Shown here: positions 35,402-52,444 of the stretch, piece after piece | How positions within the stretch are numbered: position 1 is the first letter of the stretch | Layout: every line of letters begins with the position of its first letter | From: Candidatus Jettenia caeni | GTDB taxonomy: Bacteria > Planctomycetota > Brocadiia > Brocadiales > Brocadiaceae | DNA: 64,000 nucleotides | Direction: 5' to 3' | Assembly: GCA_000296795.1 (NCBI GenBank) | Contig: BAFH01000003.1 | Location: 1,240,401-1,304,400, forward strand | The notes under the pieces: model-generated | What the model was told of the DNA's origin: nothing | Databases searched by the model: none | The model's input: the letters and a program-made list of their open reading frames with translations, nothing else | Program-made: the position numbers and the translations under genes

Positions 35402-35605
35402 TGGTGAGGTAGTCTTTCTCCAGATGGGTATATGTTCGATTTCATCCTTGAAATACTAAAAGACGTTCGGGAATGACAAATGGAGAATAGAGATGGCAGG
35501 AAAAACCCCTGGTGATGATACTCTGCATGGACAAATAATTCCTATTCAAGACATACCGCGATAGGGTGTATCGTCATATACATTAAGCTAAGCGCTACCC
35601 GACTT

Positions 35606-35737
35606 GTTCCCAAACTCTGTTTGGGAACATGCCTGTCCGGGGAACTCTGTTTCTCGAATCAAGAAGGAGCTGATCGTATGATCTCTCAGAACTATGGACC
35701 CTCGAAACAGAGTTTCCAGACAATTGTGTTCCCAAAC
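35606..35737. repeat. nested inverted repeats (GTTCCCAAAC family)
   Basis: A perfect hairpin GTTCCCAAAC-TCT-GTTTGGGAAC (35606-35628), then an outer pair GGAACTCTGTTTCTCGA (35641-35657) with TCGAAACAGAGTTTCC (35702-35717), then another GTTCCCAAAC at the right edge. Non-coding. Together with the neighbouring elements it fills the 1.2-kb gene-free stretch 34981-36173. Confidence 0.6.
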
Positions 35738-35893
35738 CATGTCCTCATGTAAATGGGGAAGAGCTTGGGAATAAGCCACTACAAGCCACAAGAACCATAT
35801 AGGCCAGAAGAGCTGGAAGTCTATAGTTAAAGATGAAGGCTCTCTGGATACAAAAATCCTTGTTTTATAAATACTATAAACCCAGCAGCTAAG

Positions 35894-35963
35894 CCCGAAG
35901 GGTTGATATTTTTATAGAAAAACGAGAAAAGGAAATTAATAAACCCTGAAAGGGTGAAATATT
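35894..35963. repeat. REP-like unit related to the 52-53 kb modules
   Basis: CCCGAAGGGTTGATATTTTT (35894) and AACCCTGAAAGGGTGAAATA (35942) are variants of the arms CCCGAAGGGATGACAT and AACCCTGAAGGGGTGAAATA that flank the IS200-like transposase at 52445-52906. This copy is a solitary remnant next to the left edge of the accessory island. Confidence 0.6.
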
Positions 35964-35974
35964 AAAAAGTTCTT

Positions 35975-36102
35975 AAGTCCTTAGTATTGGGCTGGTTTCC
36001 TGTTTTACCTTGATAATTAAGGAATTGTTAGAATTATATCTATTCTAATGGGTTTGATCAATTCTATCTACTTCAATCATTTATAGCACAAAATTAGCAC
36101 AA
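35975..36102. repeat. 128-bp imperfect direct repeat, left copy
   Basis: Aligns along its length with 36929-37055: shared blocks include TTTCCTGTTTTAC versus TTTTCTGTTTTAC, TCTATTCTA, and the terminal AAAATTAGCACAA. The two copies bracket the 212-residue membrane protein gene. The right end contains the 21-nt sequence repeated inside the integrase gene. Confidence 0.65.
36082..36102 (+). repeat. 21-nt exact direct repeat, candidate left attachment core
   Basis: TATAGCACA...TTAGCACAA, identical over 21 nt to 49921-49941 near the integrase 3' end. A 13-nt truncated match (AAAATTAGCACAA) lies at 37043-37055. A flanking direct repeat with one copy by the integrase is the pattern expected for attL/attR, but target gene and empty site are unknown. 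Confidence 0.45.
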
Positions 36103-36173
36103 CTACAGCGAAAGATCAAATAATAGTTTATAACACTTCTATTTCTTTAGTAGCAATTTAGACAGAATCTTTG

Positions 36174-36812
36174 TTATTTGAATAAATATTTAAAAAATCC
36201 TTCATTTTTAGCATTAAATGCTGAATCAAAGTTATCCCAACTTAATGTTTTCGTTTTTCCGTTATAGATATTAATTAAATCTTTCTCTATGGGTTCTCCT
36301 TCACATTCGGTTATAACGTGAAATGAAAAAGCAATTATACTACCAGGTCTTACATTTTGAAATAATATGCTTAAATAATTATTAGTGTAAACATCATCTT
36401 TTTGAAGACTTGTATATTTTATATTTGGAGGTATTGCAGAATCCAATACTTTGCCATTTATTGGAATGAAGACATCGATATTTTCAGGATTTTCGCCTAT
36501 GTATCCAATTTTCATTTGGATGTTATAAACAGGTTTCCACTTAGTAAATAATACAAATGTTTTATAACGGCCAATCCTTCGATAACTCCAAGAATAATAG
36601 GAAAAAGGTTCTTTTGTATATTTATTTTTGTCTAATTTTGTAATCTCCGTGGACGTCCTTTTTGTTGGGTTAAATAGGCGTTTTGAAAACTCAAAGATGT
36701 TATCTAAGGCTTTTGTCAAAGTACCTAAATAAACAATAATTGCTATTATAATGAAAATAATAACAAATTTGTTTTTCGCCCAATGTATAATTTGATCAAA
36801 TTTATTATTCAT
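36174..36812 (-). CDS. membrane-anchored protein of unknown function
   Basis: 212 residues. One N-terminal transmembrane helix (FVIIFIIIAIIVYLGTLT, about 16-33) leads into a soluble domain of about 150 residues rich in strands and aromatic residues (FSYYSWSYRRIGRYKTFVLFTKW, ENIDVFIPINGK). No motif or family recognised. It is very AT-rich, stands alone, and is bracketed by 128-bp direct repeats at 35975-36102 and 36929-37055, so it may have arrived as a separate cassette. ATG start at 36812. It is not obviously an immunity or toxin protein. Confidence 0.6.
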   Translation of the reverse strand: MNNKFDQIIHWAKNKFVIIFIIIAIIVYLGTLTKALDNIFEFSKRLFNPTKRTSTEITKLDKNKYTKEPFSYYSWSYRRIGRYKTFVLFTKWKPVYNIQMKIGYIGENPENIDVFIPINGKVLDSAIPPNIKYTSLQKDDVYTNNYLSILFQNVRPGSIIAFSFHVITECEGEPIEKDLINIYNGKTKTLSWDNFDSAFNAKNEGFFKYLFK

Positions 36813-36928
36813 ACTTAATTTCGTTATTTAGATAACTAAATATTTTACTATTATAATCTAAGGTAATATCACTGGCGTAGTTTGTGGCTCAATTAACACT
36901 GGAAGCTGGAAAGGTGAAGGAAAATTAT

Positions 36929-37055
36929 AAATCCTTGATGTTGGACTGATTTTCTGTTTTACATTGAAATTAAAGAATTTTTAGCATTATGTCTATTCTA
37001 TATGTTTTAATTAATTGTATGTGTTTTGATTAATTTTAGTATAAAATTAGCACAA
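36929..37055. repeat. 127-bp imperfect direct repeat, right copy
   Basis: Counterpart of 35975-36102, sharing block order and the 3' end AAAATTAGCACAA. The rest of the 36813-37207 gap is AT-rich without coding potential. Confidence 0.65.
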
Positions 37056-37207
37056 ATAATATTTGATTACTTCATTACATATAAAACAATCAATATAAGG
37101 AAAGATGATGTAAAACAAGCATTCTTGAGGATTATTATTTTTTGTAAATCTTATAAAATATCAGTAGAATAATTGCTGATTATATCAATTTGTTAATTCG
37201 ACGTGAA

Positions 37208-38746
37208 CTAGTTCGTTCTATATCCTATACGAACAACAGGTTCAAACCCGGAGTTAGAACACTGTCTTTGCCATTCAGCAAGTTTCATTAAGAAAATGAA
37301 AGATTTGATTTCAGCAATTTTTGTAATGGGAGTTTGTCGCTCAAAAATGAACCATAGACATATCTTTTTTGGTTTAACATCTTGATTATTGATTTGGATT
37401 GATGTGTTTAGATTTTGTAAAATTTTAACTGTTGCAACTGCCTGATCGATTGCATAAGCAAATTTTTGTGTAGTTCCAATTTTAACAAAAAATGCTGTAC
37501 TATCTTTGAATAAATCCAGCTTCTCAATTTTGTATTGTCGTATAGTGGTTAGATGCCTATCTAAATTAACATAACCCTCATTTTCTCTTAAAGAATTGAA
37601 ATAATATTCGGGATAACAATAAACACCACTTTCTTGTCCAGAAAGGCTATTTTGCCACTTTTCAAATGCAGAATTAGAAAAGTTAGTATTTGGATTTTCA
37701 AAAGTAATTTTCTCATCAATTTGTTTCATCAGAAATTCAATATAGTTTTGGTTGAAAACATGCCACTTACCATCAAGTAGAAAGTGCTTCTCGTCATCAA
37801 CGAAATCAAAGAAAAATTTTAATGGTTTTGCATACCCTTTGTTATTTTCATCCGAGACTTTTACTCTGATATTGTTAATATTAGCTACAAGGTTAATATT
37901 GTATCGGTTTATGAAATTGTGAAGAGCGGAAAGGCTAAGTTCTTCTATATCCTGTCTTTGTCGGCCTAATATAAAACTATATTGATTTTTACCCAGAAAA
38001 ATAAAATCAACACCCGAAACCGTTGCCTCTGCTGGCTGTAAACCAGCGTTTGTACTGTTTAGAATTTCCTGTGCAAGTTTTTGATCCAACTCAACTATTT
38101 TTGTACTGTCTACGACAGAAGTTGCTCTGGGTAAAATTATCCTAGGGTTTTTCCGTAGTTCCTCCTCAATAGCCTGTACTAATTCAGGTAAATTATCGGG
38201 TAAGATTTTTAAATGCAACTGTGTTGAATTGCCAAAACTTGCAATCTCTCCCCATTTATCCTTATTAATCGTTTTGGCCTTAACATAATGTATAGATTCT
38301 CCACTATCATATTCAATTTCGCTATTTTCCTGATATGAAATAATTGTTTTGCTTCTCTTGCCCCCAAACAGTTTTGAGTTTTTAAGCTTAAGATTATTAT
38401 CGTCAGCTATTCTCTCAGCAAGATTGATTCCAAAGTCGGTATCACAAAAATCCTTGAGATAAAAATGTGATTTTCCCATGCTGATTGCATATGACAATGT
38501 CGAATTTGAAATTAAAAATACTCCAAAATAAGCCTTGTTCTTTGGTTTATTATCTGAGCTAAAATAATCTTTATATAGATCGACCCACCAAATATCAATG
38601 TCCTCAGGTTCTTTTGAAAAATAAAATGAAAGGGTAAAACCATTGATACTTTTTTTTCTAGCAAGAGAAAGACCGATGGTCTGTAGTTTTTCAATCAAGC
38701 TCGATTCTTTGGACTTTTCGATTCTATATATGTTATATTTGGCCAT
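37208..38746 (-). CDS. DUF6119/TIGR04141-like sporadically distributed protein
   Basis: 512 residues. The N-terminus (YNIYRIEKSKESSLIEKLQT) and the C-terminal block (NLDRHLTTIRQYKIEKLDLF, then AFFVKIGTTQKFAYAIDQAVA) resemble the TIGR04141/DUF6119 family. I remember that family as patchily distributed, 500-550 residues long and often near restriction or mobile genes. No catalytic motif is obvious, so its function is unknown. It is downstream of two DNA methyltransferase genes on the same strand (139 bp gap), which suggests a component of, or passenger on, a DNA-modification defence locus. ATG at 38746. Strongly AT-rich, like the rest of the island. Confidence 0.55.
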   Translation of the reverse strand: MAKYNIYRIEKSKESSLIEKLQTIGLSLARKKSINGFTLSFYFSKEPEDIDIWWVDLYKDYFSSDNKPKNKAYFGVFLISNSTLSYAISMGKSHFYLKDFCDTDFGINLAERIADDNNLKLKNSKLFGGKRSKTIISYQENSEIEYDSGESIHYVKAKTINKDKWGEIASFGNSTQLHLKILPDNLPELVQAIEEELRKNPRIILPRATSVVDSTKIVELDQKLAQEILNSTNAGLQPAEATVSGVDFIFLGKNQYSFILGRQRQDIEELSLSALHNFINRYNINLVANINNIRVKVSDENNKGYAKPLKFFFDFVDDEKHFLLDGKWHVFNQNYIEFLMKQIDEKITFENPNTNFSNSAFEKWQNSLSGQESGVYCYPEYYFNSLRENEGYVNLDRHLTTIRQYKIEKLDLFKDSTAFFVKIGTTQKFAYAIDQAVATVKILQNLNTSIQINNQDVKPKKICLWFIFERQTPITKIAEIKSFIFLMKLAEWQRQCSNSGFEPVVRIGYRTN

Positions 38747-38885
38747 ATATTTAGTTCATAACATTATAAAACCTTTGGATGTATCAATCTGGTAAGGAAA
38801 TTTTAATTATTTGATTTTAATTTGGAAAAAAGCAAATACTTTTTTATCAAAAGTAATATAGTACTTTTAAGGTCTGATAAGTTCA

Positions 38886-40547
38886 TTATTTATTGTGCGT
38901 TCTATTCAATCTTCTTTTAGATAGCTTCCTCCAAATATTCCTTAAAATCTTGATTTTAGATTCAGTAAGCCCATACTGTTTACCCAACAGCTCCTTATCT
39001 GTTAAATCGAGTATATCTTCAATCTTTCGCTCACGGATAAGTTGGTCAACCTTTTTAAAATCGATTCTTTCATTATTAAGAATCGGCAATTGCAGTTCCT
39101 CTATTTCAGAAGGTTCAAAAGTCAATACGCCTCCACCGTAACTCCTACCTGTAATTTCTGAAAAAGCAAAAGTTAATGAGTTTAAAAATGAAAGTGCAAT
39201 TAATTTGGGGTCAATTTTATTTTTGAATTTTACCCTATGAATAGTATCTGTAGATGAGGCGTTAGCAGAGTTTAAAATCAGTTTAGGGTAATCACTTACT
39301 TGCCTCAAAACAAATGCATCTGGTACCCATAGAGAAGGTGTTATATACCATCTCTTACGAATCTTACACTTGTATCCTGTGTGAAATTTTTGTGCTTCTC
39401 CAAACTTTATATAATTATGGCAAACTTTAGGTAAATCTTTTAAATCATTATCTGGTGGTGTAAAGAGATAAATTGGATAACCAGCTTTTGAATTTATTTG
39501 AAAATCATTCTCAGTAAAAATAATTCCTTTAAGATGATTAGATTTGCTTATTACTTTATGTGTATAGGGTTTCAACTCCTTTTCTTCGACCTGTTTTTCA
39601 TTTAACATAAAAAAGTAGTTTCTTCCTGTAACAATGCCTACATCTACTTTCATCACATCACCACAGCGTGGTATATCTTTATTATTCTTTAATTCTCTAA
39701 GCAGACGTATCTCATTTTCTTCAAGGAAATATTTTGTCCATTTTTCATTTGTATGATCAACAGGTTTAACTAGTATATTAGGAATACTTTTGAAATCAAA
39801 CCCTTCAAGATCCGCAAGTGTACTTAGTTCAACCATTCGTATACCCTTATTTTCTGGAGCACTCTTTTCGCAAAGTAACAGAACAACCTCCTGCTGGATA
39901 CCTGTGAATACTAATTTGTTAAAAGTCACAATTGTTATTCTCTCAAAGAAGTTTGAAAGAAAGATTCTCGTTTCAGCAGCATACTTCACTTGAAATAATT
40001 CTGCTGGAATAACCATCCCAAGCTTGCCGATCTTAGATAACAATGTTGAAGAAATTACCAGGAAAGGTACCCAAATATTTGTCAGTTTATTAGGTTTAAG
40101 GCCTAAGGCATTCATCATTTGAATAGCACGTATTCTATGTTCTTCGGGAAAATTTTGGTAGCGAATAAATGGGGGATTGCCGACAACCACATCAAATGAG
40201 CTTTTCCCATTACTTGATAAATATTCAAAGAAGTCAATATTTACAATGGAATCTGAATTAAGTCCAAATTTTGCTGCTCTAGCTTTTGCCTTTTCTGCCT
40301 CTTTCGGAATAATTTCTATGCCTTTGATCAGGTTATAATACTTATTCTTAGGTATCCCAAGTTCTTTGAATCTATCTAGGCAGGCTTCTATAAAGTTACC
40401 ATCGCCACAACTTGGTTCTAGTATTTTTTGTTTAGAGTTAGTAATGGCCCATTTACAGATGAACCATGTTATCTCTTTAGGTGTGTAATAGCCACCTCTT
40501 AATTTTATTTCGTCAATATGCTCTAATACTTCAGCTATTCTGTTCAT
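38886..40547 (-). CDS. N6-adenine DNA methyltransferase (Eco57I-like)
   Basis: 553 residues. The SAM-binding motif I region is EPSCGDGNFI (about 44-53), preceded by the GGYYTPKEI motif X region, and the catalytic motif IV is NPPF (about 124-127). The C-terminal half (from about 300) looks like a target-recognition region (GRSYGGGVLTFEPSEIEELQ is the typical segment after the TRD). It methylates adenine in DNA. No nuclease motif is visible, so it is a stand-alone methylase or the modification partner of the upstream gene. Its start overlaps the 3' end of that gene by 17 bp, indicating translational coupling. Confidence 0.85.
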   Translation of the reverse strand: MNRIAEVLEHIDEIKLRGGYYTPKEITWFICKWAITNSKQKILEPSCGDGNFIEACLDRFKELGIPKNKYYNLIKGIEIIPKEAEKAKARAAKFGLNSDSIVNIDFFEYLSSNGKSSFDVVVGNPPFIRYQNFPEEHRIRAIQMMNALGLKPNKLTNIWVPFLVISSTLLSKIGKLGMVIPAELFQVKYAAETRIFLSNFFERITIVTFNKLVFTGIQQEVVLLLCEKSAPENKGIRMVELSTLADLEGFDFKSIPNILVKPVDHTNEKWTKYFLEENEIRLLRELKNNKDIPRCGDVMKVDVGIVTGRNYFFMLNEKQVEEKELKPYTHKVISKSNHLKGIIFTENDFQINSKAGYPIYLFTPPDNDLKDLPKVCHNYIKFGEAQKFHTGYKCKIRKRWYITPSLWVPDAFVLRQVSDYPKLILNSANASSTDTIHRVKFKNKIDPKLIALSFLNSLTFAFSEITGRSYGGGVLTFEPSEIEELQLPILNNERIDFKKVDQLIRERKIEDILDLTDKELLGKQYGLTESKIKILRNIWRKLSKRRLNRTHNK

Positions 40548-43500
40548 CTTCTATAATTTCCGCTAAAAATAAATTACTATCCTTTATAGCTTCCAATTCC
40601 TCTTTTTTTATTCCATACAACGAATTAATCATTGAAATTATTTCATTATATAAATAATTAAATTTTCTCTGCAAAATGGACTTTTTATTGGCAATATATG
40701 TCTTGTTAATAGTTTGCTTTGTTTTTATAATTTCTTTAGTATTTTTACATATGGAATTATAAAGATTTACTTCTTCTATTGAATCAAAATTTATATTTCG
40801 GATGGGCAAGTTTTCAATAAATTGCTTGCCATGAGAATAATATGATCCACGAAATTCACTGGCTCTTGCTTTAACCATTGCCTCAAAAGCTGGATGTGCC
40901 AATATAGCTAGCAAATAGAAAATAGAATAATTAGAATTCGAAATTAAGGAATAATAAGGACCATTACCACCGCCTGTAAATTGCAAGTTAGCATTATCAT
41001 AAGCATAACTTGATTGTTTGGAAAGTACAGGCCAAATTATTTTAGGATTGTTATGGAACTTTGTTAAACTCTGAGAACGACCGTATTGATACCATTTGAT
41101 TTCCCTTGTACCGTTAATACTTCTTTCTTCTAAATCAGTTTTGTAATGGTTCAAATATTTCCAGCACAGAGGATAATTACTTTTTAATAGTTTTTCTGAA
41201 AAAACTTCTGCCCGATTATTTGAGATAGTATATGGAAAAATTATTAATGCATTTGGCTGTGGTATGTCAAATAGGCTAAAAGACAAATCATAAATGCACG
41301 GAAGTAGTATTGCCTTCTCTATTTCCCATTTCTTTCCTTCTTTCTCAAAAAAAATTGTATACTGCTTTTCTTCGATAGGCTGAATAACATAAATTCTATC
41401 CGCACTTGTTTGGAGCCCGACAGATATCTCTGCAATTTGTTTTAGGGGAACAGTTAATTTACTTTTAATCTTTTTAAAGAGTTCTGTGGCTTCATTAGAT
41501 AAAAATATCCAGGGTTGGTCGGAATAATCTGCAACGTTATATTCTGCGATAGTGGCAGAGTTGAAACTATGCTCAACATTTAATTTAGTAATTCTTTTGA
41601 AAGAAAATTTTTGTTTGGGTCGCTTATCAATTACTAAAATGGCTGTATAGGTTGACCTGCCCGGAAATACTTGTGTAACCCCAAAGTGAACGATTTTAGA
41701 TAATGAGCATTGGCTGGTGATTAAAGCTCTAAGCTTTTTCGCCCCTTTCACGATAAAAAATTTGTGTGGGACAATATAGCCAATAACACCATTTTCGTTT
41801 GTAAGTTCAATTGCTCGTTCGATAAATAGATAATATTTATCAAAGTTGTTACTAGATGCCACAGAGTAAGGAGATTGCTTACTTTGATAATATTGAATCT
41901 CTTCAAAAGAGTATTTAACTAGATTCTGAATACGTACGTAGGGAGGATTTCCGATAACGGCATCAAATCCTTTCTTTTCTTTTAGAAATGGAAATTCAAC
42001 AGACCAATTAAAAGGCTTAAGTTTGTATAAAAGCTCGTCATTTTCTAGTGCGGCTTTATCAAACTCAAAATACTGATCATCTATTAATGAATTACCGCAT
42101 TTGATGTTATTATTCAGGTTCGGTAAAACCTTTCTTTTGTAAGTATTTAAATAGTAGTCAATCGAAGTTGCTTTCTCGTTTTCAAGTAGCTTTAGTAACA
42201 AACTAAACCGAGTTACTTCAATAGCATAAGGGTTTACATCGACTCCAAAAATGTTTTGAAGTAATATTTTTTGTTTTGCTTTCAGAGTTAATCGCCAAGA
42301 TTTATCATAAGTTTGATATGCAATATCATTGTCGATCACATCGGATTGGAGCAAGATATTTATATGTTTCTCTATCAAATAATCAAATAGTGAAATTAGG
42401 AATGTTCCTGAACCACAACAGATATCCACAATCTTTAAATTATTAATTCGCTGTAAGGTACTTCTTTCTAGTAAAGGTTCAAGAGTTTCTCTAATTATTT
42501 GGTCAACTATAAATTTAGGTGTTGGAATGACACCATTGGATGCAATAACCTCTGGTTCCTTTACAATACGGATGGATTTTTCAGATACTAAAGCAATCCT
42601 ACTCCCTAAATATTTCTCATAGATTTGGTTTAAAATATTAGGCTCTATTACAGAAAAGTCGTAAGGACTGGCAGGATAATAAAGCTCATTGAAAATTTCT
42701 ATTAAAAGCTCTGGATCAACTATTATCCCTAAGGATAAATTGTCTTCAATAAAATCAAATAGTCCAGAATTGTATTTTTTATCAGATGCTATAAAAAGCT
42801 TTTTCAGTTCTTCATAATTACTGATTTTCTTTAGTGTTTCGTATTTTTCTATTTCCCTATCCTCACAAATTCTAAGGAAAATAATCCTATTGATCAGACG
42901 TTGAATTAAGAAATTGATTTCTTCCTCTTTAAGGGATTTATTATTTTTAAGAACGTTAATAGCAAGCTTTTCTCTCCATTTCTCAATTTGTAGCAGGAAA
43001 TACTCATCAAAGGGAGTGGTATCTTTCTCCGTAAATGAAAAGTATTCGTCTAAAAAGCCAGAACTAACGGAATTATAAGACAGTAATTGATATAGCTCCT
43101 CAAATTGTTCTAAATAATTCTTAAAATGAAATATTCGATATCTTGCAGATTGTGGGCCATCATCAATATTAGGTTTATATCTGCAATCATACACAATCAA
43201 TTTCTCAAAGTTAGTCAAAATAGATATTCCTAAATTAGCATTCCATCCGTATCGCCTTGTTTGAAATGCTGCGGCTTTGGAATATTCTATATCTATTGAA
43301 ACTTTCTTTGCTTCAACAAATAGTTTCCTATTGCCTAAGATTCTTAGGGTATAATCAGGATTTTTCTTGGTAATGGTGTCATCTTCTTCAATATTAATAG
43401 ATTCTTCTTGGATTACATCTCGGATAAATTGATTTTTTGCCTCTTCATTATTGACATCCCAACCGAAAGTTTTGAGAAAAGCATTTAAAAAATCTATCCT

Positions 43501-43620
43501 TAACTGAGCTTCACTGTATTTATTCTTTTTAAGGTGAGAATATTGCTTTTCAAAAGAAGTAATCAAGCTTGTAAGTTGCTCTAATGCTTTTGCTTTATTT
43601 TTAGTAACAGTATACGACAT
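40531..43620 (-). CDS. type IIG-like restriction-methyltransferase fusion (Eco57I family)
   Basis: 1029 residues combining endonuclease and methylase. The N-terminal region has a PD-(D/E)xK-like nuclease core (PDYTLRI..., then FVEAKK at about residue 100) resembling the HsdR N-terminal fold. A helical linker follows, then a SAM-binding motif I DICCGSGTFL near 400 and catalytic NPPYVRIQN near 560, then a C-terminal recognition region with the typical FRGSYYSHGKQFIENLPI segment. Such single-chain enzymes cut at a fixed distance from the recognition site and methylate one strand, which is why a second methylase (the next gene, overlapping by 17 bp) often accompanies them. First gene of the trio; ATG at 43620. 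Confidence 0.85.
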   Translation of the reverse strand: MSYTVTKNKAKALEQLTSLITSFEKQYSHLKKNKYSEAQLRIDFLNAFLKTFGWDVNNEEAKNQFIRDVIQEESINIEEDDTITKKNPDYTLRILGNRKLFVEAKKVSIDIEYSKAAAFQTRRYGWNANLGISILTNFEKLIVYDCRYKPNIDDGPQSARYRIFHFKNYLEQFEELYQLLSYNSVSSGFLDEYFSFTEKDTTPFDEYFLLQIEKWREKLAINVLKNNKSLKEEEINFLIQRLINRIIFLRICEDREIEKYETLKKISNYEELKKLFIASDKKYNSGLFDFIEDNLSLGIIVDPELLIEIFNELYYPASPYDFSVIEPNILNQIYEKYLGSRIALVSEKSIRIVKEPEVIASNGVIPTPKFIVDQIIRETLEPLLERSTLQRINNLKIVDICCGSGTFLISLFDYLIEKHINILLQSDVIDNDIAYQTYDKSWRLTLKAKQKILLQNIFGVDVNPYAIEVTRFSLLLKLLENEKATSIDYYLNTYKRKVLPNLNNNIKCGNSLIDDQYFEFDKAALENDELLYKLKPFNWSVEFPFLKEKKGFDAVIGNPPYVRIQNLVKYSFEEIQYYQSKQSPYSVASSNNFDKYYLFIERAIELTNENGVIGYIVPHKFFIVKGAKKLRALITSQCSLSKIVHFGVTQVFPGRSTYTAILVIDKRPKQKFSFKRITKLNVEHSFNSATIAEYNVADYSDQPWIFLSNEATELFKKIKSKLTVPLKQIAEISVGLQTSADRIYVIQPIEEKQYTIFFEKEGKKWEIEKAILLPCIYDLSFSLFDIPQPNALIIFPYTISNNRAEVFSEKLLKSNYPLCWKYLNHYKTDLEERSINGTREIKWYQYGRSQSLTKFHNNPKIIWPVLSKQSSYAYDNANLQFTGGGNGPYYSLISNSNYSIFYLLAILAHPAFEAMVKARASEFRGSYYSHGKQFIENLPIRNINFDSIEEVNLYNSICKNTKEIIKTKQTINKTYIANKKSILQRKFNYLYNEIISMINSLYGIKKEELEAIKDSNLFLAEIIEDEQNS

Positions 43621-43688
43621 AGAATAATTGGCTTTTTTATGAAAAGATTTAAAATACTATTCTTTTTGTAATCTATTTTTAGCATCCA

Positions 43689-43805
43689 TTATGAGGACTC
43701 CAATATGTGCTCATTTTTCGTTACCAAGCACCAATCTATAATTTCAACTTCTTTAATTTCATCACAATACAGATTTAAAACAATTTTATTTAACACATCG
43801 TTCAT
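43689..43805 (-). CDS. possible 38-residue leader ORF upstream of the RM gene
   Basis: ATG 43805 to TAA 43689, encoding MNDVLNKIVLNLYCDEIKEV and a further 18 residues. The composition looks protein-like and it sits 68 bp upstream of the RM gene on the same strand, where small controller genes often lie. No HTH is evident and there is no ribosome site, so this may be chance. Confidence 0.2.
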   Translation of the reverse strand: MNDVLNKIVLNLYCDEIKEVEIIDWCLVTKNEHILESS

Positions 43806-43876
43806 AGTTTTATTTTGTAAAAAGTAGAATAGAAATTAAACATAATACCAATTATTTTGCGGAAATGATTATTAAT

Positions 43877-43902
43877 TATCATACAATATATGTTGTATGA
43901 TA
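43877..43902. promoter_or_regulatory. perfect 10-bp operator-like palindrome
   Basis: TATCATACAA, a 6-nt spacer (TATATG), then TTGTATGATA. It lies in the 434-bp divergent region between the RM gene (minus) and the 353-residue gene (plus), five bases upstream of a TTGTCA -35 candidate. This is the geometry of a repressor or controller site. No regulator gene is recognised next to it. Confidence 0.5.
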
Positions 43903-43906
43903 CAAT

Positions 43907-43933
43907 TTGTCAACTTATATATTGTATTATAGT
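43907..43933 (+). promoter_or_regulatory. candidate promoter for the 353-residue gene
   Basis: TTGTCA (43907-43912), a 15-bp spacer, then TATAGT (43928-43933), about 120 bp upstream of ATG 44055. The spacer is short, and the -35 nearly abuts the palindrome at 43877-43902, consistent with repression or activation from that site. Confidence 0.35.
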
Positions 43934-44054
43934 TTTAAAACATGTACTGAGTGAAGTGAGAGCTATGTGAGAGCAAAACAAAGCGTGGTGCAATAGTTAC
44001 GATTAATTATATAATTACTAATATAGATTGGTTTTGTAAAAGGTATAAACAAAT

Positions 44055-45116
44055 ATGAATGATAGTTGGAAAGAGAAAATTGACCCTGCCTTTGATGAAC
44101 TGATTAAGGTTCACCTGGATTTCATAAAGAATACTTGTATTTGCACGAGCGATAAAAAGAAACGATATTTAACGCTTGATGATGAATCACTAAAAGTCTT
44201 GGAGCGTAAAAGATATCCACTTCTCTTAAAAGAATTCAAGCCAAATCAAAGAAATCTGAAAAAGTTAACGAATAATATAATTACCTTAGGCGCAAGTCCT
44301 AATGTTATGCATATATTGGACTTTTTTAAGAATACGGCAAGATTAATTAATATGAATGAGAATAAAAAATCAAAGAGAGAAGATAAAAACAAATGTTTAG
44401 ATGCGTTAAAATGGAATATCATAGGCATGATTAAGGGATTGCCATGGGAAAATAGCAGGAATTATTACAAAAAACGCCTCGAAATTTATTTTTCGCCAGA
44501 AGAGGCTAGGACGTTTGCCGAAGGAAAGACTCAAAAGGAATTGATAAAGGGGTTTTTTGAGATAGGAATGGATATATTTTGTTTGATATTTCAAACAGGA
44601 ATTCGAGGTTATTGGGATCCACTAAGTGAAAGTTATGAGGATAAAAAAATCAATAAATCGAATCTTATCAATATAGGAGCGCAATTAATGTATAATGCCA
44701 TATCAATAATGACTTACAAAAAGACTCTTGATGAGCTACTTGATGAAGCACGAAATAATGATGAATCATTATACAAGGCAATCCATCTTGATAAAACCCT
44801 GTTTGAGGTGGATTGGGTGCGTAAACGCATTAGAAAGGCGTTTTATTCAGGAGATTCTATCTTTTTTAAACAGTTAGGAAGGGCAATAAAAAAACCTCCA
44901 ATACCGGCAAAATTGATGTATGGAGAAGCAATTATAATATTAGCTTCATTGTGGTCTCTTGGTCTATATAGGCTTGACAATAGTGAACTCATGGAGCTAT
45001 TAAAGATATGCAGAGTAACGATACCAGAAGAACCGGAGGCTTTCAGGAAATTTATGGATCGTCTCAAGGATGATAACGTTATTGAGGATTATAACAAGGT
45101 ATTCAATGATTTGTAA
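44055..45116 (+). CDS. hypothetical protein of the accessory island
   Basis: 353 residues, family not recognised. Mostly helical and Lys/Glu-rich; one hydrophobic stretch (FFEIGMDIFCLIFQTGI, about 167-183) is too short and too isolated to call a membrane helix with confidence. No Walker, nuclease, HTH or metal motif is visible. It is transcribed divergently from the RM trio and ends at two strong hairpins, so it is a separate transcription unit. It may be a further defence component or an element maintenance protein; nothing in the sequence decides. Confidence 0.6.
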   Translation: MNDSWKEKIDPAFDELIKVHLDFIKNTCICTSDKKKRYLTLDDESLKVLERKRYPLLLKEFKPNQRNLKKLTNNIITLGASPNVMHILDFFKNTARLINMNENKKSKREDKNKCLDALKWNIIGMIKGLPWENSRNYYKKRLEIYFSPEEARTFAEGKTQKELIKGFFEIGMDIFCLIFQTGIRGYWDPLSESYEDKKINKSNLINIGAQLMYNAISIMTYKKTLDELLDEARNNDESLYKAIHLDKTLFEVDWVRKRIRKAFYSGDSIFFKQLGRAIKKPPIPAKLMYGEAIIILASLWSLGLYRLDNSELMELLKICRVTIPEEPEAFRKFMDRLKDDNVIEDYNKVFNDL

Positions 45117-45122
45117 AAATAC

Positions 45123-45148
45123 GGACATGAAATAATTTTTTCATGTCC
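45123..45148 (+). terminator. perfect hairpin after the 353-residue gene
   Basis: GGACATGAAA, loop TAATTT, TTTCATGTCC: a perfect 10-bp stem starting six bases after the stop codon. The T-run is within the stem and not after it, so it may be a weak terminator or protect the mRNA 3' end ahead of the stronger terminator at 45178. Confidence 0.5.
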
Positions 45149-45177
45149 TGGATATAATTCTCGCTATTCAATACTAT

Positions 45178-45211
45178 AAAGCCACAGTAAAACAAACTGT
45201 GGCTTTTTTAT
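45178..45211 (+). terminator. strong intrinsic terminator
   Basis: AAAGCCACAG, a 9-nt loop, CTGTGGCTTT continuing into TTTTA: a perfect 10-bp GC-containing stem with A-rich left flank and T tail. The symmetrical A/T flanks allow bidirectional function. It insulates the 353-residue gene from the replication module. Confidence 0.85.
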
Positions 45212-45234
45212 TTCATGGTCAGAAGAGATATTTA

Positions 45235-45428
45235 CCGTGCTTCGTGCGCGTGAGCCATGCGGAAGCGCATCGAAGCACGGGCGGGAAAAGAGAACTTCAT
45301 AAGCATAATTTCATTTAAGCTTTTTTGCCCTTGTTCCGCTAAAGTCTTGCGCCATTCCTTAGGTGCGCTGCCCGAAGGAAGAGCAAGCGCACATGTAGTA
45401 TAAATATGTAGGCGCAAGTGCGCTTGCA
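45235..45428. repeat. cluster of GC-rich inverted repeats upstream of rep; possible origin
   Basis: Arms CCGTGCTTCG...GCGC (45235) and GCGC...CGAAGCACGG (to 45280) form a long stem. A second perfect 10-bp pair, GCAAGCGCAC (45383-45392) and GTGCGCTTGC (45419-45428), follows. The stretch is far more GC-rich than the surrounding island and non-coding, and it ends about 145 bp before the predicted replication initiator. An origin is plausible but unproven. The remaining 45429-45573 bases show nothing further. Confidence 0.45.
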
Positions 45429-45573
45429 ATTGGCTTAGACGGACGAGGGCGAAAAAGCGTCAACCAATAATGTTAATACCAGTTATGAAATAGAGATAGG
45501 CAATCTATTGCGGTGCGTACCCAGTAACACAGCACCGCCAAATTACATAATCTTTTTTAAGAGATATTTAGCA

Positions 45574-46665
45574 ATGGAACTAAAAGAACTTTTTAAAGGA
45601 ATCGATAGTTTGTATGTGTCTTATAAAGGTACGCCGAAAGCAGGATTACAAGAACACTTGGAAGAAAAAAAGAAATTGGCTCAATCAGAACAGGAAAAGA
45701 AACAAGCCTTGGCAAGAATAGCCATTAATGATCACTGCTTTGAGGTATTAGATAGAGGCACCAAGTGGTATTCGTTTATTTTGGTAGATAACTGGTATCA
45801 CCTGCAAATATCAGGAAGTAAAAGACAAAAACTTCCCCAGGTATATGTACAGATATCGAGCGAACTCCTTACTTGTTATGGTCTTGATACCTCTATTCAG
45901 GAATTAAGAAAAGTCATAAACATGCTTTTGGAAAAAATAGAAGAAGAGACTATCAGCAGAACCGATATCTTTACTGATTTCGTTACTGATAGAGAATTAG
46001 AAGCCATTGAAAAGGTATCATGGGTAACCAGGGCAAAAAAGACCCATAAGTATTGGGAAGGCGATATATTTACCGGCTGGACAATAGGCCAGGGTGGTGA
46101 CATATCTGCACGACTTTATGAAAAGACCGTTGAACTTGAAAAGAGTCATAAGGACTATCTCAAGGAACTTTGGGAAAAGCAAGGCTGGGACACAATCCAA
46201 AGGGTATGGAGACTTGAATTTCAATTGAGGAGAGAGTTGCTAGCACAAATGGCTATCCATACGTTTTCAGATCTCATGGAAAAAAGGAATGATATTTGGA
46301 AATATTGCACCCACGAATGGCTAAGACTTGCAATAAAAGACACTACGATAAATAGAACACGATGGAAGACAGATTCCGTATGGGAAAGGATTCAGGATGT
46401 AAAATTCGATGATGGCAAATATACAGGTATTTTAAGACAAGTAAACAAGTCAAGGATTCCCAGCGATAAGACGTTATTCCAAAACGGTATTGGCTATATC
46501 ACAGCCTTTGCAGCCCGGGAAGGATTTGAAAACGTTGATAAGGGAACACTCAATGAATATTTAGACAAGGCAAAGAACTATCTCAGAGAACAAACCAACG
46601 GCAGAGATGAAGATTACTTAAAGACAAAGATAGATAATAAAAAGAAGAAATATAACAGGATATGA
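45574..46665 (+). CDS. predicted replication initiation protein (Rep_trans-like)
   Basis: 363 residues from ATG 45574 (MELKELFKGIDSLYVSYKG); the frame is open further 5' but those residues are non-conserved in style. The pattern fits rolling-circle-type replication initiators of plasmids and phage satellites: RTDIFTDFVTD, then GDISARLYEKTVE with the candidate catalytic Tyr, then VWRLEFQLRRELL. Such proteins nick an origin and prime replication. Next to it are an excisionase-like gene (11 bp downstream), a P-loop ATPase and an integrase, which supports the role. The family call is by motif pattern only. Confidence 0.6.
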   Translation: MELKELFKGIDSLYVSYKGTPKAGLQEHLEEKKKLAQSEQEKKQALARIAINDHCFEVLDRGTKWYSFILVDNWYHLQISGSKRQKLPQVYVQISSELLTCYGLDTSIQELRKVINMLLEKIEEETISRTDIFTDFVTDRELEAIEKVSWVTRAKKTHKYWEGDIFTGWTIGQGGDISARLYEKTVELEKSHKDYLKELWEKQGWDTIQRVWRLEFQLRRELLAQMAIHTFSDLMEKRNDIWKYCTHEWLRLAIKDTTINRTRWKTDSVWERIQDVKFDDGKYTGILRQVNKSRIPSDKTLFQNGIGYITAFAAREGFENVDKGTLNEYLDKAKNYLREQTNGRDEDYLKTKIDNKKKKYNRI

Positions 46666-46676
46666 GGTAAGACACC

Positions 46677-46946
46677 ATGAAAATAGTAACCATAAAAGAA
46701 GTATCGGAATTTCTGAAAGTTAAGCAGTCAACCCTCTATTCATGGGTAAACCGAAGATTAATACCCTCATTTAAATTAAACGGCCTTTGGCGTTTTGACA
46801 TGGAAAGGATAGAGGCATGGGTAATGGAATCTCATAGCGTAAAAGTCATGCCTCAAAAGATCACAAAAAAAACAACAAGGAATCAGGATATAAACAGAAT
46901 CATTAAACATGCAATCGAGGCAGTCCATGGAAACGAACAATCTTAA
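46677..46946 (+). CDS. excisionase-like helix-turn-helix protein
   Basis: 89 residues. The first 55 form a winged-HTH of the AlpA/Xis/MerR-like 'helix-turn-helix domain 17' type: TIKEVSEFLKVKQSTLYSWV, RRLIPSFKLNGLWRFD. Such proteins bend attachment-site DNA to favour excision or regulate element genes. It lies 11 bp after rep and overlaps the start of the ATPase gene, so the element genes form one operon. The basic C-terminal tail (KKTTRNQDINRIIKHA) is unassigned. Confidence 0.8.
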   Translation: MKIVTIKEVSEFLKVKQSTLYSWVNRRLIPSFKLNGLWRFDMERIEAWVMESHSVKVMPQKITKKTTRNQDINRIIKHAIEAVHGNEQS

Positions 46947-48402
46947 CCATACAAATAACGAATACGATTATATCATTGCGCATCCTTCGTATGAAGTAAA
47001 CCAGATATTTATGTCATTGGGATTCCGGGAAACGGTGATAACAAACAATCAAGTGGAAAATAAGAATTTTTATATCATATCGGGAAAAGATATATCCATA
47101 CAGAAAGAAAGCGTATTCAAATACGAAAATACGACAATCATATTTCATGAACAAGATAAAATGCTCTTAAGAGTAAATGACCGATGGAATAAAAACAAAA
47201 TATCGAGCTTTATTACCAATCCTGAACCACCAAAAGAACTCTATCAGGAACTAAAACAAACACTCAAAAACTATATCGAGTTTCAGAGAGAGGCTATCTA
47301 CGGCATCATAACAGCATGGATTATAGCAACCTATTTTCATAGATGCTTCCATGCCTTCCCCTTTTTGTTCATATATGGGAAGAAACAAAGCGGTAAGAGT
47401 AGATTCCTGGACTTGCTGGAACGATTATCATTTAACGCCATGAAAGTAAAGGGTGTATCGGTTGCATCCCTTGCCGATAGCATTGATGGAGTACGAGGGA
47501 CATTTTTAAATGACCAGGCAGAAGAACTCAGCAATAAAAAGAATACAGAGATTTTAGGCATCCTTTCGGATAGTTACACAATCGGGGGCGGTAAGAGAAG
47601 AATTGTAAATATGTCAAACAAGGGCCGTAGAATCATAGAATTTGAGACTTTCGGGCCAAAGGCATTTGCAAGCATAAAAGAAATCGATAGTGATCTAAGG
47701 GATAGGTGTATTGAAATAACCATGCTCAGGGCAATCAAGGAATATCCCTATCCCGATGCATACTTACCCATTTGGAATGACTTAAGGGATAGGTTATACC
47801 GGTTACTTTTTACCAGGTGGCATAGAGTAAGAGAACTCTATCAAGAGACAGGAAAAGACGTATCCCACAGGGTAAAGGAACTCTGGAGACCTCTTGAGAG
47901 CATATTACAGCTTGAAAATGTTCCTAGTGAAGAAATGAAAGAGATCAAGGGCTTTTTTCTTGAAAGTATGCAGGAAACCCAAAATGAATTATCCGAATAT
48001 GAGATCAAACTCTTTGAGACATTACAGGAAATCCTCAAGGGAAAAGGTAAAGAGATATTAACCATAACGGATATAGCGGAAAACCTCAAATCAGATTACT
48101 CAACGATGGATGAGAAAGAAAAAAAGAGGTTCCAAATATGGATAGGCAAGATAGTAAAGCAATTAAGCCTTTATGATAAGCCGGTTGGGAGAAAAGACGG
48201 TAAAAGGGCGTATGAATTCAGTGTTGACCGTATTGATAGTATATACCAAAGATACATTACCATGACCATTGATGACCATTGCCCTATTCCTGTAATGGTA
48301 AGTCATAAGTCATCACAAAAGAATGCCCCTGACCATGTGACCATTGGAATGAGTGATTTAGTAGAAGATGAAAATATTCCAGAGAAGGAAATTGAGATTT
48401 GA
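46927..48402 (+). CDS. P-loop ATPase, primase/helicase-like mobile-element protein
   Basis: 491 residues from ATG 46927 (GAGG six bases upstream; an ATG at 46909 lacks such a site). Walker A is GKKQSGKSRFLD at about 150-161, with a Walker B candidate RGTFLNDQAEE and a downstream sensor-like FGPKAFASIKEIDSDLRDRC. This order is typical of DNA-processing ATPases in phages and integrative elements, often annotated as primase or DUF3631-type helicase. The C-terminal about 120 residues (IWIGKIVKQLSLYDKP) look like a winged-helix. Probable role is unwinding during element replication. It overlaps the next gene. Confidence 0.7.
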   Translation: METNNLNHTNNEYDYIIAHPSYEVNQIFMSLGFRETVITNNQVENKNFYIISGKDISIQKESVFKYENTTIIFHEQDKMLLRVNDRWNKNKISSFITNPEPPKELYQELKQTLKNYIEFQREAIYGIITAWIIATYFHRCFHAFPFLFIYGKKQSGKSRFLDLLERLSFNAMKVKGVSVASLADSIDGVRGTFLNDQAEELSNKKNTEILGILSDSYTIGGGKRRIVNMSNKGRRIIEFETFGPKAFASIKEIDSDLRDRCIEITMLRAIKEYPYPDAYLPIWNDLRDRLYRLLFTRWHRVRELYQETGKDVSHRVKELWRPLESILQLENVPSEEMKEIKGFFLESMQETQNELSEYEIKLFETLQEILKGKGKEILTITDIAENLKSDYSTMDEKEKKRFQIWIGKIVKQLSLYDKPVGRKDGKRAYEFSVDRIDSIYQRYITMTIDDHCPIPVMVSHKSSQKNAPDHVTIGMSDLVEDENIPEKEIEI

Positions 48403-48917
48403 ACAATATTCAAAAACTTATCCATACAATTCAATACCTGGGATACAGAGTCTTACTTGAAGGTGACAAGATTAAACTAAAGTTTATAGGCAAGGATGAT
48501 CCTCCAAAAGAGGCTTCAACTATAATCAATGAGGTAAAACAAAATAAAGATATGGTTATAGAATATCTAAGAAATATTTCTCAGATGGATGAAATCTTTC
48601 AACAAGCAGTAAATAAAATAAATGAAGGTTATCCAGATTTAACCATTCGCTATATATCAAAGACATTCCCGAAACTCTATAAGAAAGCCCTCATTGATGA
48701 AGATAAAATTAATACCCTATGGAATGAAGGAAAAGACGTAAAAGCCTTTGAGAAAGCAGTAAATGAATGGCGGAAAACACAGATGAAATTTATCAAACTC
48801 TTTCATGCTAAAAAAAATATTGATGATAAGAAGGATAAGGAATATAATCCATCCAACAGGAAGCCAGACCCATGTCAAGGTCTCGGAAAGGAGGAAAAAG
48901 AACATGGGACTGTATAA
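48399..48917 (+). CDS. TubC-N-like small mobile-element protein
   Basis: 172 residues starting at TTG 48399, which overlaps the upstream stop (TTTGA). The first 58 residues (IQKLIHTIQYLGYRVLLEGD, then a helix NEVKQNKDMVIEYLR) resemble the TubC N-terminal docking fold. That fold is often found as the N-terminal part of phage or plasmid primase and replication proteins. The remainder is helical and Lys-rich with no motif. Its 3' end overlaps the integrase start by 14 bp. Function unknown; probably accessory to replication. Confidence 0.6.
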   Translation: MNNIQKLIHTIQYLGYRVLLEGDKIKLKFIGKDDPPKEASTIINEVKQNKDMVIEYLRNISQMDEIFQQAVNKINEGYPDLTIRYISKTFPKLYKKALIDEDKINTLWNEGKDVKAFEKAVNEWRKTQMKFIKLFHAKKNIDDKKDKEYNPSNRKPDPCQGLGKEEKEHGTV

Positions 48918-49974
48918 AAGAGGTCTGGTCTGGTGGATGAGGTTTACCTATAAGGGCCAACAGGTAAGAAAATCAACAGAGACAACAGATAAGAAGCTGG
49001 CAGAAAGGATTTACCATAAGGTTAAAACTCAAATAACTGAGGGAAAATGGTTTGATGTTGATGAAGGAAACCAAAGAACCTTTGAAGAGCTTGCCGAAAA
49101 ATATGAGACTCAGGTGTTTAGAGAACTCAAGGGCTGGCGTTCTTCAATAAGTTATTTGAACCAACTAAAAGATTTTTTCGGTAAATATAGGCTTGCTGAA
49201 ATTACCCCTGCACGAATAGACGACTTTAGGCAAATGAGAAAGAATAAAGGGGTAAAACCAGCAACCATTAATCGCCAGTTTAAGATACTGCGAAGGATGT
49301 TTAACCTTGCCAAGAAGCGTTGGCAATGGATAAAAGAAACTCCAATAATCGAGATGGAACCAAATGCCGATGTAAAAAGGGTAAGGCATCTCTCATTTGA
49401 TGAGTTTAATAAACTTCTGAACTGTTGTGAGGGCAAGCTTAGGGATATAGTAATTGTTGCGGCCTGGACAGGTCTAAGGCAGAGTAATATCTTAAACCTC
49501 AAGTGGAATCAAGTTGATTTACTGGCAAGGGTAATAGTGTTGAGTAGCGAAGAGACAAAGAATAATGAAAGTTTAAGAATTCCGATTGCTAATCCTGCTT
49601 ACCATGTTTTAGAAGTAACCATGAAGAAAAACAATTCTAAAAGTCCATATGTCTTTTATAGTGACGATGGAATGCCTTTTAAAGCCGGGCGCATTCAAAT
49701 AAATTTTAAAAAGGCTTTGAGGCGTGCAGAAATAGAGGATTTTAGATTCCACGACTTGAGGCATTGTTTTGCATCCTGGAATCGTCAATCAGGAGTTGAT
49801 TTAGATACCCTTGCAGAGCTTATGGGACATAAGGATACACGGATGACGAGAAGATATGCCCATATTACCCCTGTGCATCTAAAAAAAGCCGTTGAACTCT
49901 TAGAGAAAAGCTATAGCGAGTATAGCACAAAATTAGCACAATCAAATATTGATGTGGTTAAGCAAACGGCTTAA
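48904..49974 (+). CDS. tyrosine-type site-specific integrase
   Basis: 356 residues from ATG 48904, which has a strong ribosome site (GGAGG); upstream in-frame ATGs lie inside the previous gene. N-terminal AP2-like arm-binding part (GLYKRGLVWWMRFTYKGQQ), core-binding domain (about 60-150), and catalytic domain with the tetrad: Arg in TGLRQSN, HDLRH, GHKDTRMTRRYAH with the nucleophilic Tyr. It catalyses integration or excision. The last 18 residues (STKLAQ region) are encoded by DNA that includes the 21-nt repeat also found at 36082, so the gene's own 3' end may be an attachment half-site. It is the last gene of the rep-xis-ATPase-int operon. Confidence 0.92.
   Translation: MGLYKRGLVWWMRFTYKGQQVRKSTETTDKKLAERIYHKVKTQITEGKWFDVDEGNQRTFEELAEKYETQVFRELKGWRSSISYLNQLKDFFGKYRLAEITPARIDDFRQMRKNKGVKPATINRQFKILRRMFNLAKKRWQWIKETPIIEMEPNADVKRVRHLSFDEFNKLLNCCEGKLRDIVIVAAWTGLRQSNILNLKWNQVDLLARVIVLSSEETKNNESLRIPIANPAYHVLEVTMKKNNSKSPYVFYSDDGMPFKAGRIQINFKKALRRAEIEDFRFHDLRHCFASWNRQSGVDLDTLAELMGHKDTRMTRRYAHITPVHLKKAVELLEKSYSEYSTKLAQSNIDVVKQTA
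49921..49941 (+). repeat. 21-nt exact direct repeat, candidate right attachment core
   Basis: Identical over 21 nt to 36082-36102 and situated within the last 18 codons of the integrase. Flanking bases differ on both sides, so the match is bounded. Its location fits an attachment core overlapping the int 3' end, but it could also be a scrap of integrase sequence left at 36082 by another element. Confidence 0.45.
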
Positions 49975-50020
49975 ATACTGGTTTTTATGGCTGTTAACGT
50001 ATTAATCCAAGATTATATCG

Positions 50021-50045
50021 ATGCCCTGAAAGGGTGATATAAATA
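50021..50045. repeat. solitary REP-like half unit
   Basis: GATGCCCTGAAAGGGTGATA resembles the AACCCTGAAGGGGTGAAATA arm of the modules around 52-53 kb. It marks the junction between the integrase and the type I locus. The rest of 49975-50346 holds the hsdS-like fragment listed next. Confidence 0.5.
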
Positions 50046-50176
50046 TGATTGATAGAAATCGAATACCACCAAGTTATGAAGCTTGGGTAAAAGTGTGTTT
50101 TTCTCCTCAATATTGTTATACAACCGGTGGTTCTCAAACTGGTAATTTGAAACAAAATGAGCAACACAGACATTAA
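50045..50176 (+). pseudogene. possible remnant of an hsdS 5' end
   Basis: An open frame of 43 codons begins MIDRNRIPPSYEAWVK. The intact hsdS at 50347 begins MIDKSKIPSSWEVVKH, so the first dozen residues and their DNA are similar. After that similarity is lost. It directly abuts a REP-like half unit. It may be the start of a former second specificity gene; the short match leaves room for coincidence. Confidence 0.35.
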
Positions 50177-50346
50177 TTTTCTGACGAAGACCCTAACAGT
50201 AAATCAAGAAAATATGCCAGCTATATTCCCTTTTAGGCTTAAAATCTTATTTGATGGTTATTTGATAGACACCCCGTATTGATTCCGTATTAATTCCAAT
50301 TTTTTACGACATTTTAAGGTGTTTATCCATAAAAAAGCAGTATAAG

Positions 50347-51693
50347 ATGATTGACAAAAGCAAAATACCTTCGAGTTGGGAAGTTGTCAAACATAGTGAA
50401 GTTGCAGAAATAAATCCTAAACTTCCTTTTAAAAATGTTGATGATAACACAGAAGTTTCATTTCTTCCTATGAGATTAATTGAAGAAGAAAAAAACGTAT
50501 TCTATCTTACTGAATTCAGAAAATATAAGGACGTAAAAAAAGGCTTTACCGCCTTTACAGATGGTGATGTGATTTTTGCAAAGATTACGCCATGTATGGA
50601 GAACGGGAAATGTGCTGTTTTACATGATCTGAAAAATGGAATTGGTTTCGGTTCAACGGAGTTTCATGTTTCGCGATCAAGGGAATGTGTTATCGCTAAA
50701 TACATTTTTTATTTCATTGTTCAAAAGCAATTCAGAAGAATTGCAGAAAGTAATATGACTGGTAGTGTAGGACAGAAAAGAGTTCCAACACGATTTTTTT
50801 CTGATTTTGAAATTCCTATTCCTCCACTTCCCGAACAGCACCGCATCGTTTCCAAAATAGAAGAACTCTTCAGCGAATTAGACAAAGGCATTGAAAGTTT
50901 AAAAACCGCCCAGCAGCAACTCAAAGTCTACCGCCAGGCCGTGTTGAAGTGGGCTTTTGAAGGAAGATTGACGCATGAAAATGTAAAAGACGGTGAATTG
51001 CCGGAGGGATGGTGGTGGGTGAAGGTTAAAGATGTTGGGAAGGTTGGGACCGGAACAACACCTTCTAAGAAAAATCCCGAATTTTATTCAAGAGCTTATC
51101 CATTTTATAAACCAACAAATTTGGAAGCAGGAAACAATGTTCAACAATCACTGGATGGTTTGTCCGATCTTGGTATTAAAGAAGCACGATTTGTTCCAAT
51201 AAATTCAACGCTTGTCACTTGTATTGGTGCAACAATTGGTAAAACAGGTTTAATAAAAAAGGGAGGCGGGTTCAATCAACAAATAAATGCAATCATTCCC
51301 TTTAAGGAATACAACCCAAAGTTTATCTACTATCAAGCAATCTCACCGCAGTTTCAAGAGCAGATAAAAGAGAATGCTTCAGCAACAACACTTCCTATAC
51401 TAAACAAAAGAAAGTTTGAAATTCTCTTAATAGCTGTTTGCTCACCTGAAGAGCAAAACCAAATCGTTTCTGAAGTCGAGACCCGCCTTTCAGTATGCGA
51501 TAAATTAGAAGAAACCATAACAACCGCCTTGCAGCAAAGCGAAGCCCTGCGGCAAAGCATCTTGAAAAAGGCATTTGAAGGAAAGCTGGTAGCCCAAAAC
51601 CCAGGAGACGAACCAGCGTCAAAATTATTGGAGAGGATAAAAGTAGAGAGGGAGAAGAATGATACGTGGAAGAAGAAAATCCCGAAGGGATGA
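50347..51693 (+). CDS. hsdS: type I restriction specificity subunit HsdS
   Basis: 448 residues with the standard two-half plan. TRD1 spans about 10-155. The first conserved helix is RFFSDFEIPIPPLPEQHRIV, leading into KIEELFSELDKGIESLK and the KWAFEGRLT segment. TRD2 follows (about 220-370), then the second conserved helix (EEQNQIVSEVETRLSVCDKL) and KKAFEGKLV. HsdS determines the DNA target of the HsdM/HsdR complex. The TGA stop lies inside a REP-like repeat (51678-51705). It is upstream of hsdM, separated by a transposase insertion, and no hsdR is visible. hsdM is broken, so this HsdS probably has no working local partner. Confidence 0.92.
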   Translation: MIDKSKIPSSWEVVKHSEVAEINPKLPFKNVDDNTEVSFLPMRLIEEEKNVFYLTEFRKYKDVKKGFTAFTDGDVIFAKITPCMENGKCAVLHDLKNGIGFGSTEFHVSRSRECVIAKYIFYFIVQKQFRRIAESNMTGSVGQKRVPTRFFSDFEIPIPPLPEQHRIVSKIEELFSELDKGIESLKTAQQQLKVYRQAVLKWAFEGRLTHENVKDGELPEGWWWVKVKDVGKVGTGTTPSKKNPEFYSRAYPFYKPTNLEAGNNVQQSLDGLSDLGIKEARFVPINSTLVTCIGATIGKTGLIKKGGGFNQQINAIIPFKEYNPKFIYYQAISPQFQEQIKENASATTLPILNKRKFEILLIAVCSPEEQNQIVSEVETRLSVCDKLEETITTALQQSEALRQSILKKAFEGKLVAQNPGDEPASKLLERIKVEREKNDTWKKKIPKG

Positions 51694-51705
51694 CATGATT
51701 ATAGG
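51678..51705. repeat. REP-like unit overlapping the hsdS stop
   Basis: AATCCCGAAGGGATGACATG ATTATAGG, the same as the outer left arm of the modules at 52219 and 52924. The hsdS stop codon is the TGA in GGGATGACAT. Confidence 0.75.
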
Positions 51706-52085: not shown

Positions 52086-52091
52086 TCATAA

Positions 52092-52377: not shown

Positions 52378-52444
52378 AAAAAATATGCACGTACCGATAT
52401 CCTATAAAAATGATATCCTATCGGGATTGAAAGGGGGGAATTCT

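Follow-up and report, generated by a model that had tools for sequence, protein, structure and literature searches.

In the window, the whole 64,000-nucleotide stretch of Candidatus Jettenia caeni DNA that was analyzed, three genes follow one another on the minus strand (Table 1). The first encodes an endonuclease-methyltransferase fusion (R), the second a separate adenine methyltransferase (M), and the third a protein of the DUF6119/TIGR04141 family. The preliminary description of this DNA had placed three open reading frames here, all on that strand, with a 17-bp overlap between the fusion and the stand-alone methylase. The frames are present where it put them and the overlap is exactly 17 bp. 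Its domain calls (nuclease-methylase fusion, second adenine methylase, and DUF6119-like protein) are upheld by the Pfam, PADLOC, and TIGR04141 profiles. The stop codon of M and the start codon of the DUF6119 gene are 139 bp apart on the same strand. We looked for a recognizable terminator in this gap and found none, and an Rfam scan of positions 34000-52000 gave no matches. Open reading frames without a family match lie on either side of the cluster, at 44055-45116 (353 aa) and 36174-36812 (212 aa).

Table 1. Positions of the cluster genes, the island, and the associated sites, counted from the first letter of the window.
Feature	Position	Strand	Basis or remark
R, Eco57I/AcuI-type (type IIG-like) endonuclease-methyltransferase fusion, 1029 aa	40531..43620	-	ORF call, Pfam, PADLOC, motifs
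M, M.Eco57I-type protective adenine methyltransferase, 553 aa	38886..40547	-	ORF call, Pfam, PADLOC, motifs
DUF6119/TIGR04141 protein, 512 aa	37208..38746	-	ORF call, Pfam, TIGR04141
Candidate nuclease signature E408-x2-D411-x10-K422-x12-Q435 of the DUF6119 protein	37442..37525	-	alignment
Promoter-like TTGACA-17-TATATT upstream of R	43878..43913	-	consensus match only
Genomic island carrying the cluster	35405..54997		replaced by ~319 bp in same-genus genome G248
att-like 21-bp repeat TATAGCACAAAATTAGCACAA	36082..36102	+	identical copy in integrase 3' end 49921-49941; near-copy 37035-37055
Replication-initiator/endonuclease-like protein, same element as integrase	45508..46665	+	PHROG 33635 and 20614, weak
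P-loop-like protein, integrase element	46909..48402	+	phrog_21086 (unknown function); YGKKQSGKSR seen in sequence
Tyrosine integrase of the cluster-bearing element	48805..49974	+	PF00589, 125 bits

The R protein has an N-terminal PD-(D/E)XK nuclease motif (P88-D89 and E103-A-K105, spaced as PD-x13-EAK), an adenine methylase core with DICCGSGTF near residue 400 and NPPY at 558, and a TaqI_C-like specificity domain. In Pfam it matches Eco57I with 142 bits, along with N6_Mtase, and the matches to TaqI_C and HSDR_N are weak. The HSDR_N score of 22.9 bits leaves the nuclease domain under the Pfam threshold (25.1), and the PD...EAK motif is nevertheless kept in five homologues. Over its full length, R matches the PADLOC model REase_MTase_IIG (PDLC03604) with 1103 bits. 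M carries the catalytic motifs EPSCGDGNF and NPPF and matches M_Eco57I_C (PF22837; 152.7 bits, cut-off 27) and the PADLOC model MTase_II (PDLC03267; 686 bits). All catalytic residues of both proteins are intact and match those of five plasmid homologues in the alignment. The nearest plasmid relatives are pairs in Xanthomonas, Neorhizobium, and Mesorhizobium with 39-42% identity, and a pair on an E. coli plasmid shows identities of 33% (R) and 36% (M). The domain matches and intact motifs back the earlier view of a IIG-like fusion with a protective second methylase, in the arrangement of Eco57I and AcuI. As predicted from their sequences, the first two genes are a complete and ordinary Eco57I-type restriction-modification system.

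Upstream of R, a perfect 9-bp inverted repeat, ATCATACAA-N6-TTGTATGAT (43878-43901), overlaps the strong promoter-like site, with 0.08 such matches expected by chance when up to three mismatches are allowed. The repeat is a plausible candidate for an autoregulatory operator.

The cluster lies on a genomic island. In genome G248, window positions 31028-35404 are joined to 54998-58062 with ~319 bp between them, and this joining of the flanks identifies 35405-54997 as the island. Within it, a nested part that encodes the integrase, the replication-initiator-like protein, and the P-loop-like protein is bounded by copies of the 21-bp repeat TATAGCACAAAATTAGCACAA, a putative att site. Since the cluster is carried on an integrase-bearing island, R, M, and the DUF6119 gene probably arrived together as cargo. 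A dispersed repeat of ~160 bp is present at 35944-36106 and 36930-37058, ends in AAAATTAGCACAA, and has many copies in most genomes of the window's bacterial family; a copy of its final 21 bp is also found in the 3' end of the integrase gene. To the right of the integrase are type I HsdS and HsdM genes (50347-51693 and 53874-55016) with no HsdR between them. Genome G328 lacks 35427-50807 and has type I hsd sequences at the same site, including sequence related to the HsdS and HsdM of the window.

The product of the third gene matches the DUF6119 profile PF19614 with 100.3 bits over most of its length (cut-off 27) and TIGR04141 with 71.3 bits (cut-off 35), both above the curated cut-offs and far over chance. 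It keeps all invariant residues of this family, whose members are named 'sporadically distributed protein', and it stands on a divergent branch, with 100 bits compared to 424-511 bits for canonical members of the same phylum. None of the PADLOC 2.0.0 models matches the protein. A tblastn search of plasmids with the window protein or the L014 protein as a query gave no match, and no relative was seen in viral contigs scanned with the window protein, L014, A2, and A3. In the open literature, we found no functional paper on DUF6119/TIGR04141.

L024, L025, L026, and L027 are the closest relatives of the DUF6119 gene in the window, and all four come from the same bacterial family. One, a paralogue in the window's own genome with 80% identity, adjoins type I hsd genes (L024, 9567-11169). 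Another is 83% identical, and its neighbors encode an SMC-like ATPase, a 1462-aa Eco57I-domain protein, and an SNF2 helicase (L025, 762-2299). The other two are remnants that adjoin type I genes. Every one of these copies is frameshifted, truncated, or internally deleted, and an assembly error or phase variation may possibly lie behind the damage. The DNA homology of the window gene to the four relatives runs from 10-12 nt before the start codon to within ~60 nt of the stop codon. Since the homology is confined to the gene and the neighbors are different each time, the DUF6119 gene moves alone. Elsewhere, a DUF6119 gene directly follows rlmH, the SCC attachment gene, in a record that is labelled as a staphylococcal phage and reads as S. 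aureus chromosome (L015, 11725-13470). On a prophage-like viral contig, a further one lies downstream of a lysozyme-like open reading frame, which is a typical position of moron genes (L035, 7986-9605).

We aligned 33 DUF6119 proteins with a median pairwise identity of 24%. The sole invariant columns are W54, E408, D411, K422, and Q435 in the window numbering. The E, D, K, and Q residues, present in 33/33 proteins, are located in the C-terminal domain and are arranged as E-x2-D-x(n)-K-x(n)-Q. PD-(D/E)XK enzymes have a conserved acidic residue and a (D/E/Q)xK lysine, often followed by a glutamine, on a core of alpha-beta-beta-beta-alpha-beta order. Two positions ahead of the invariant lysine, where a (D/E)XK site normally has its second acidic residue, most DUF6119 members have H and the window protein has F. 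Two AlphaFold models, one of L035 and one of the window protein, were of low confidence, with mean pLDDT values of 45.5 and 43.6. In the L035 model, the order around the motif is alpha-beta-beta-beta-alpha-beta, and the order in the window-protein model is compatible with a PD-(D/E)XK core. The modelled order is a helix, strands bearing E/D and K, a helix bearing Q, and a strand. On the motif and this predicted arrangement, the C-terminal motif is rather likely to be a PD-(D/E)XK-like nuclease site. Sequence and structure comparisons gave no detectable homology to known nucleases. Foldseek of both models against the PDB returned no match at E<=0.001, and the presence of Cap4, Kpn2I, MspJI, and XPF at E 0.13-0.7 amid unrelated proteins in the L035 list is not evidence. 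The PDB profile search with the C-terminal domain gave only chance matches (ribosomal protein S3), and the Pfam scan of 28 C-terminal domains gave nothing credible except DUF6119 itself. Comparisons of DUF6119 by hhalign with Cap4_nuclease, Mrr, and the N-termini of HsdR gave no signal, nor did those with methylase and SprT alignments as negative controls. We also considered whether the motif could be an HxK of the phospholipase D type and rejected this, since there is no D at the required distance and the H is not conserved.

The tightest link of DUF6119 is with type I restriction operons. In four alphaproteobacterial plasmids (L042, L051, L052, and L053), a DUF6119 gene sits in the slot between hsdS and hsdR. 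Mameliella, Paracoccus albus, and Mesorhizobium share the gene order S-M-S-DUF6119-R-SprT, in which genes overlap by 1 to 8 bp, and Actibacterium has the S-DUF6119-R-SprT segment of it. Related type I operons hold other genes in this slot, a HAD hydrolase in Rhodobacter and a hypothetical protein plus a kinase in Novosphingobium. Between the Mameliella and Paracoccus operons, HsdR, HsdM, and SprT are 96.6%, 96.8%, and 96.6% identical, whereas the DUF6119 proteins are just 33% identical (L042, 7951-9666, compared to L051). The DNA homology of the two operons (90-93%) ends at the end of HsdS2 and restarts 10 nt inside hsdR, and part of HsdS2 is likewise exchanged. The break in homology at the slot, beside near-identical HsdR, HsdM, and SprT, indicates that one DUF6119 gene was swapped for another in place. 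The window DUF6119 gene is not between hsdS and hsdR and lies beside a type II system instead. These data support the view that restriction systems use DUF6119 as an exchangeable accessory, and the support is strongest in type I operons.

Alternatively, DUF6119 could be a partner of restriction systems that is exchangeable and non-nucleolytic, such as an anti-inhibitor or a protein that recognizes DNA. Such a role would account for its swapping like a specificity domain, and it agrees with the precise cassette exchange adjoining a likewise exchanged HsdS segment and with the lack of nuclease homology in PDB profile, Pfam, and hhalign searches. However, four invariant polar or charged residues with nuclease-like spacing, conserved at a median identity of 24%, suggest catalysis, and the solo DUF6119 genes in the prophage-like and rlmH-linked contexts argue for a function that needs no partner. 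We consider a non-nucleolytic partner rather unlikely.

The preliminary description had gone further and proposed a composite defense system in which a IIG-like enzyme and DUF6119 recur side by side. On this reading, DUF6119 would be a dedicated third subunit whose gene is transcribed along with those of R and M and which acts on their recognition site. The shared strand and the 139-bp gap with no clear terminator are consistent with this proposal. The DUF6119 gene also has no conserved promoter of its own, as homology to its relatives starts 10-12 nt before the ATG, and the planctomycete relatives in G068 and G228 have genes for other large Eco57I-domain proteins at distances of 2.8 and 4.3 kb. 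The recurrent adjacency, however, was not found. We built a DUF6119 HMM on 33 family proteins and used it to scan 19 loci that hold relatives of R and/or M, namely five plasmid pairs and 14 planctomycete M relatives, some on short contigs; none (0/19) contained a DUF6119 gene. The four closest DUF6119 relatives have type I or other systems as neighbors and share no flanking DNA, and an adjoining restriction-modification pair of the window kind is absent from all of them. The movement of the DUF6119 gene on its own also argues against a dedicated subunit, and the sole intimate operon linkage found was that with type I systems. The composite system is thus quite improbable, and DUF6119 is probably a portable defense module rather than a fixed third part of an Eco57I-type enzyme. 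In a planctomycete locus (L032, 3514-11390), a 1514-aa Eco57I-domain protein, a GmrSD protein, and a DUF6119 protein are encoded in a row on one strand, possibly another composite arrangement.

Enrichment of DUF6119 beside DNA methyltransferases, the other expectation raised for this locus, was observed. In planctomycetes, 5/12 DUF6119 loci (from 11 genomes) have an N6_Mtase or Eco57I domain at a distance of up to 10 kb, compared to 0.29 expected (P ~3.5e-6); related loci from a single family account for most of this enrichment, and the window itself is one of the five. On plasmids, 10 of the 17 annotated DUF6119 loci, as a raw count, have a type I system or an N-6 methylase no more than 8 kb away, and seven are away from any methyltransferase. 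Further neighbors of DUF6119 genes are Shedu, TIR, NACHT (one directly adjacent), GmrSD, type III restriction-modification, and P-loop NTPase genes, which are typical of defense islands. It is very unlikely that DUF6119 is island cargo functionally unrelated to restriction, as the damage in all four close relatives and the seven plasmid loci away from methylases might suggest, because the methyltransferase enrichment and the keeping of divergent DUF6119 proteins in the type I slot are hard to explain without a functional link.

We therefore favor, with a probability of about 0.6, an Eco57I-type restriction-modification pair accompanied by an independent, mobile accessory DUF6119 protein that is PD-(D/E)XK-like and most plausibly acts as a second-line effector. 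R would recognize an asymmetric site, cut the DNA next to it when it is unmodified, and also methylate it, and M would supply the host methylation that R alone does not give. The DUF6119 gene would be a horizontally mobile accessory defense gene brought on the same island and would not encode an obligate subunit. The nuclease domain, with E408, D411, K422, and Q435, is probably formed by the C-terminal ~180 residues of the protein, and the N-terminal ~330 residues may be a sensor or target-recognition part. Beside a DNA-modification system, such an effector could cooperate with methylation and be triggered by invading or unmodified DNA. Alternatively, the trigger may be phage inhibition of restriction, as for PrrC beside a type I enzyme, an analogy that is our own. 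A broader proposal is more tentative: DUF6119 proteins might in general be defense nucleases that serve type I and further restriction systems as interchangeable effectors, diversify through the exchange of whole-gene cassettes in a fixed operon slot, and guard restriction in a PrrC-like manner. With this analysis, a family of unassigned function gains a testable active site and a testable role as an accessory effector of restriction systems. The two type I operons with HsdR and HsdM 97% identical and with DUF6119 proteins 33% identical in the slot provide a natural experiment.

Among known systems, PrrC is a type I-linked effector that is silenced by its restriction enzyme and freed by a phage inhibitor (PMC2610378). 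The likeness of DUF6119 to PrrC lies in this context, and we claim no relation in sequence to either PrrC or DarTG. Embedding at the hsdS-hsdR position is known from DarTG2 in E. coli (PMC12255303), and this slot is shared with the DUF6119 genes of the four alphaproteobacterial plasmids and not with the window gene. Like the R and M pair of the window, Eco57I, AcuI, and Cac824II consist of two proteins, a type IIG-like R and a separate M, with PD-(D/E)XK, adenine methyltransferase, and TaqI_C-like domains in R and M_Eco57I_C in M. Cac824II of Clostridium acetobutylicum also shares the gene order of the window, R upstream of M on one strand; its M gene is directly downstream of R, was needed for protection, and was therefore expressed first (PMC4736252). 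The plasmid Eco57I-type pairs differ in this respect, with the order M-R or, in E. coli, a convergent arrangement. Unlike all these Eco57I-type systems, the pair in the window is followed by a DUF6119 gene.
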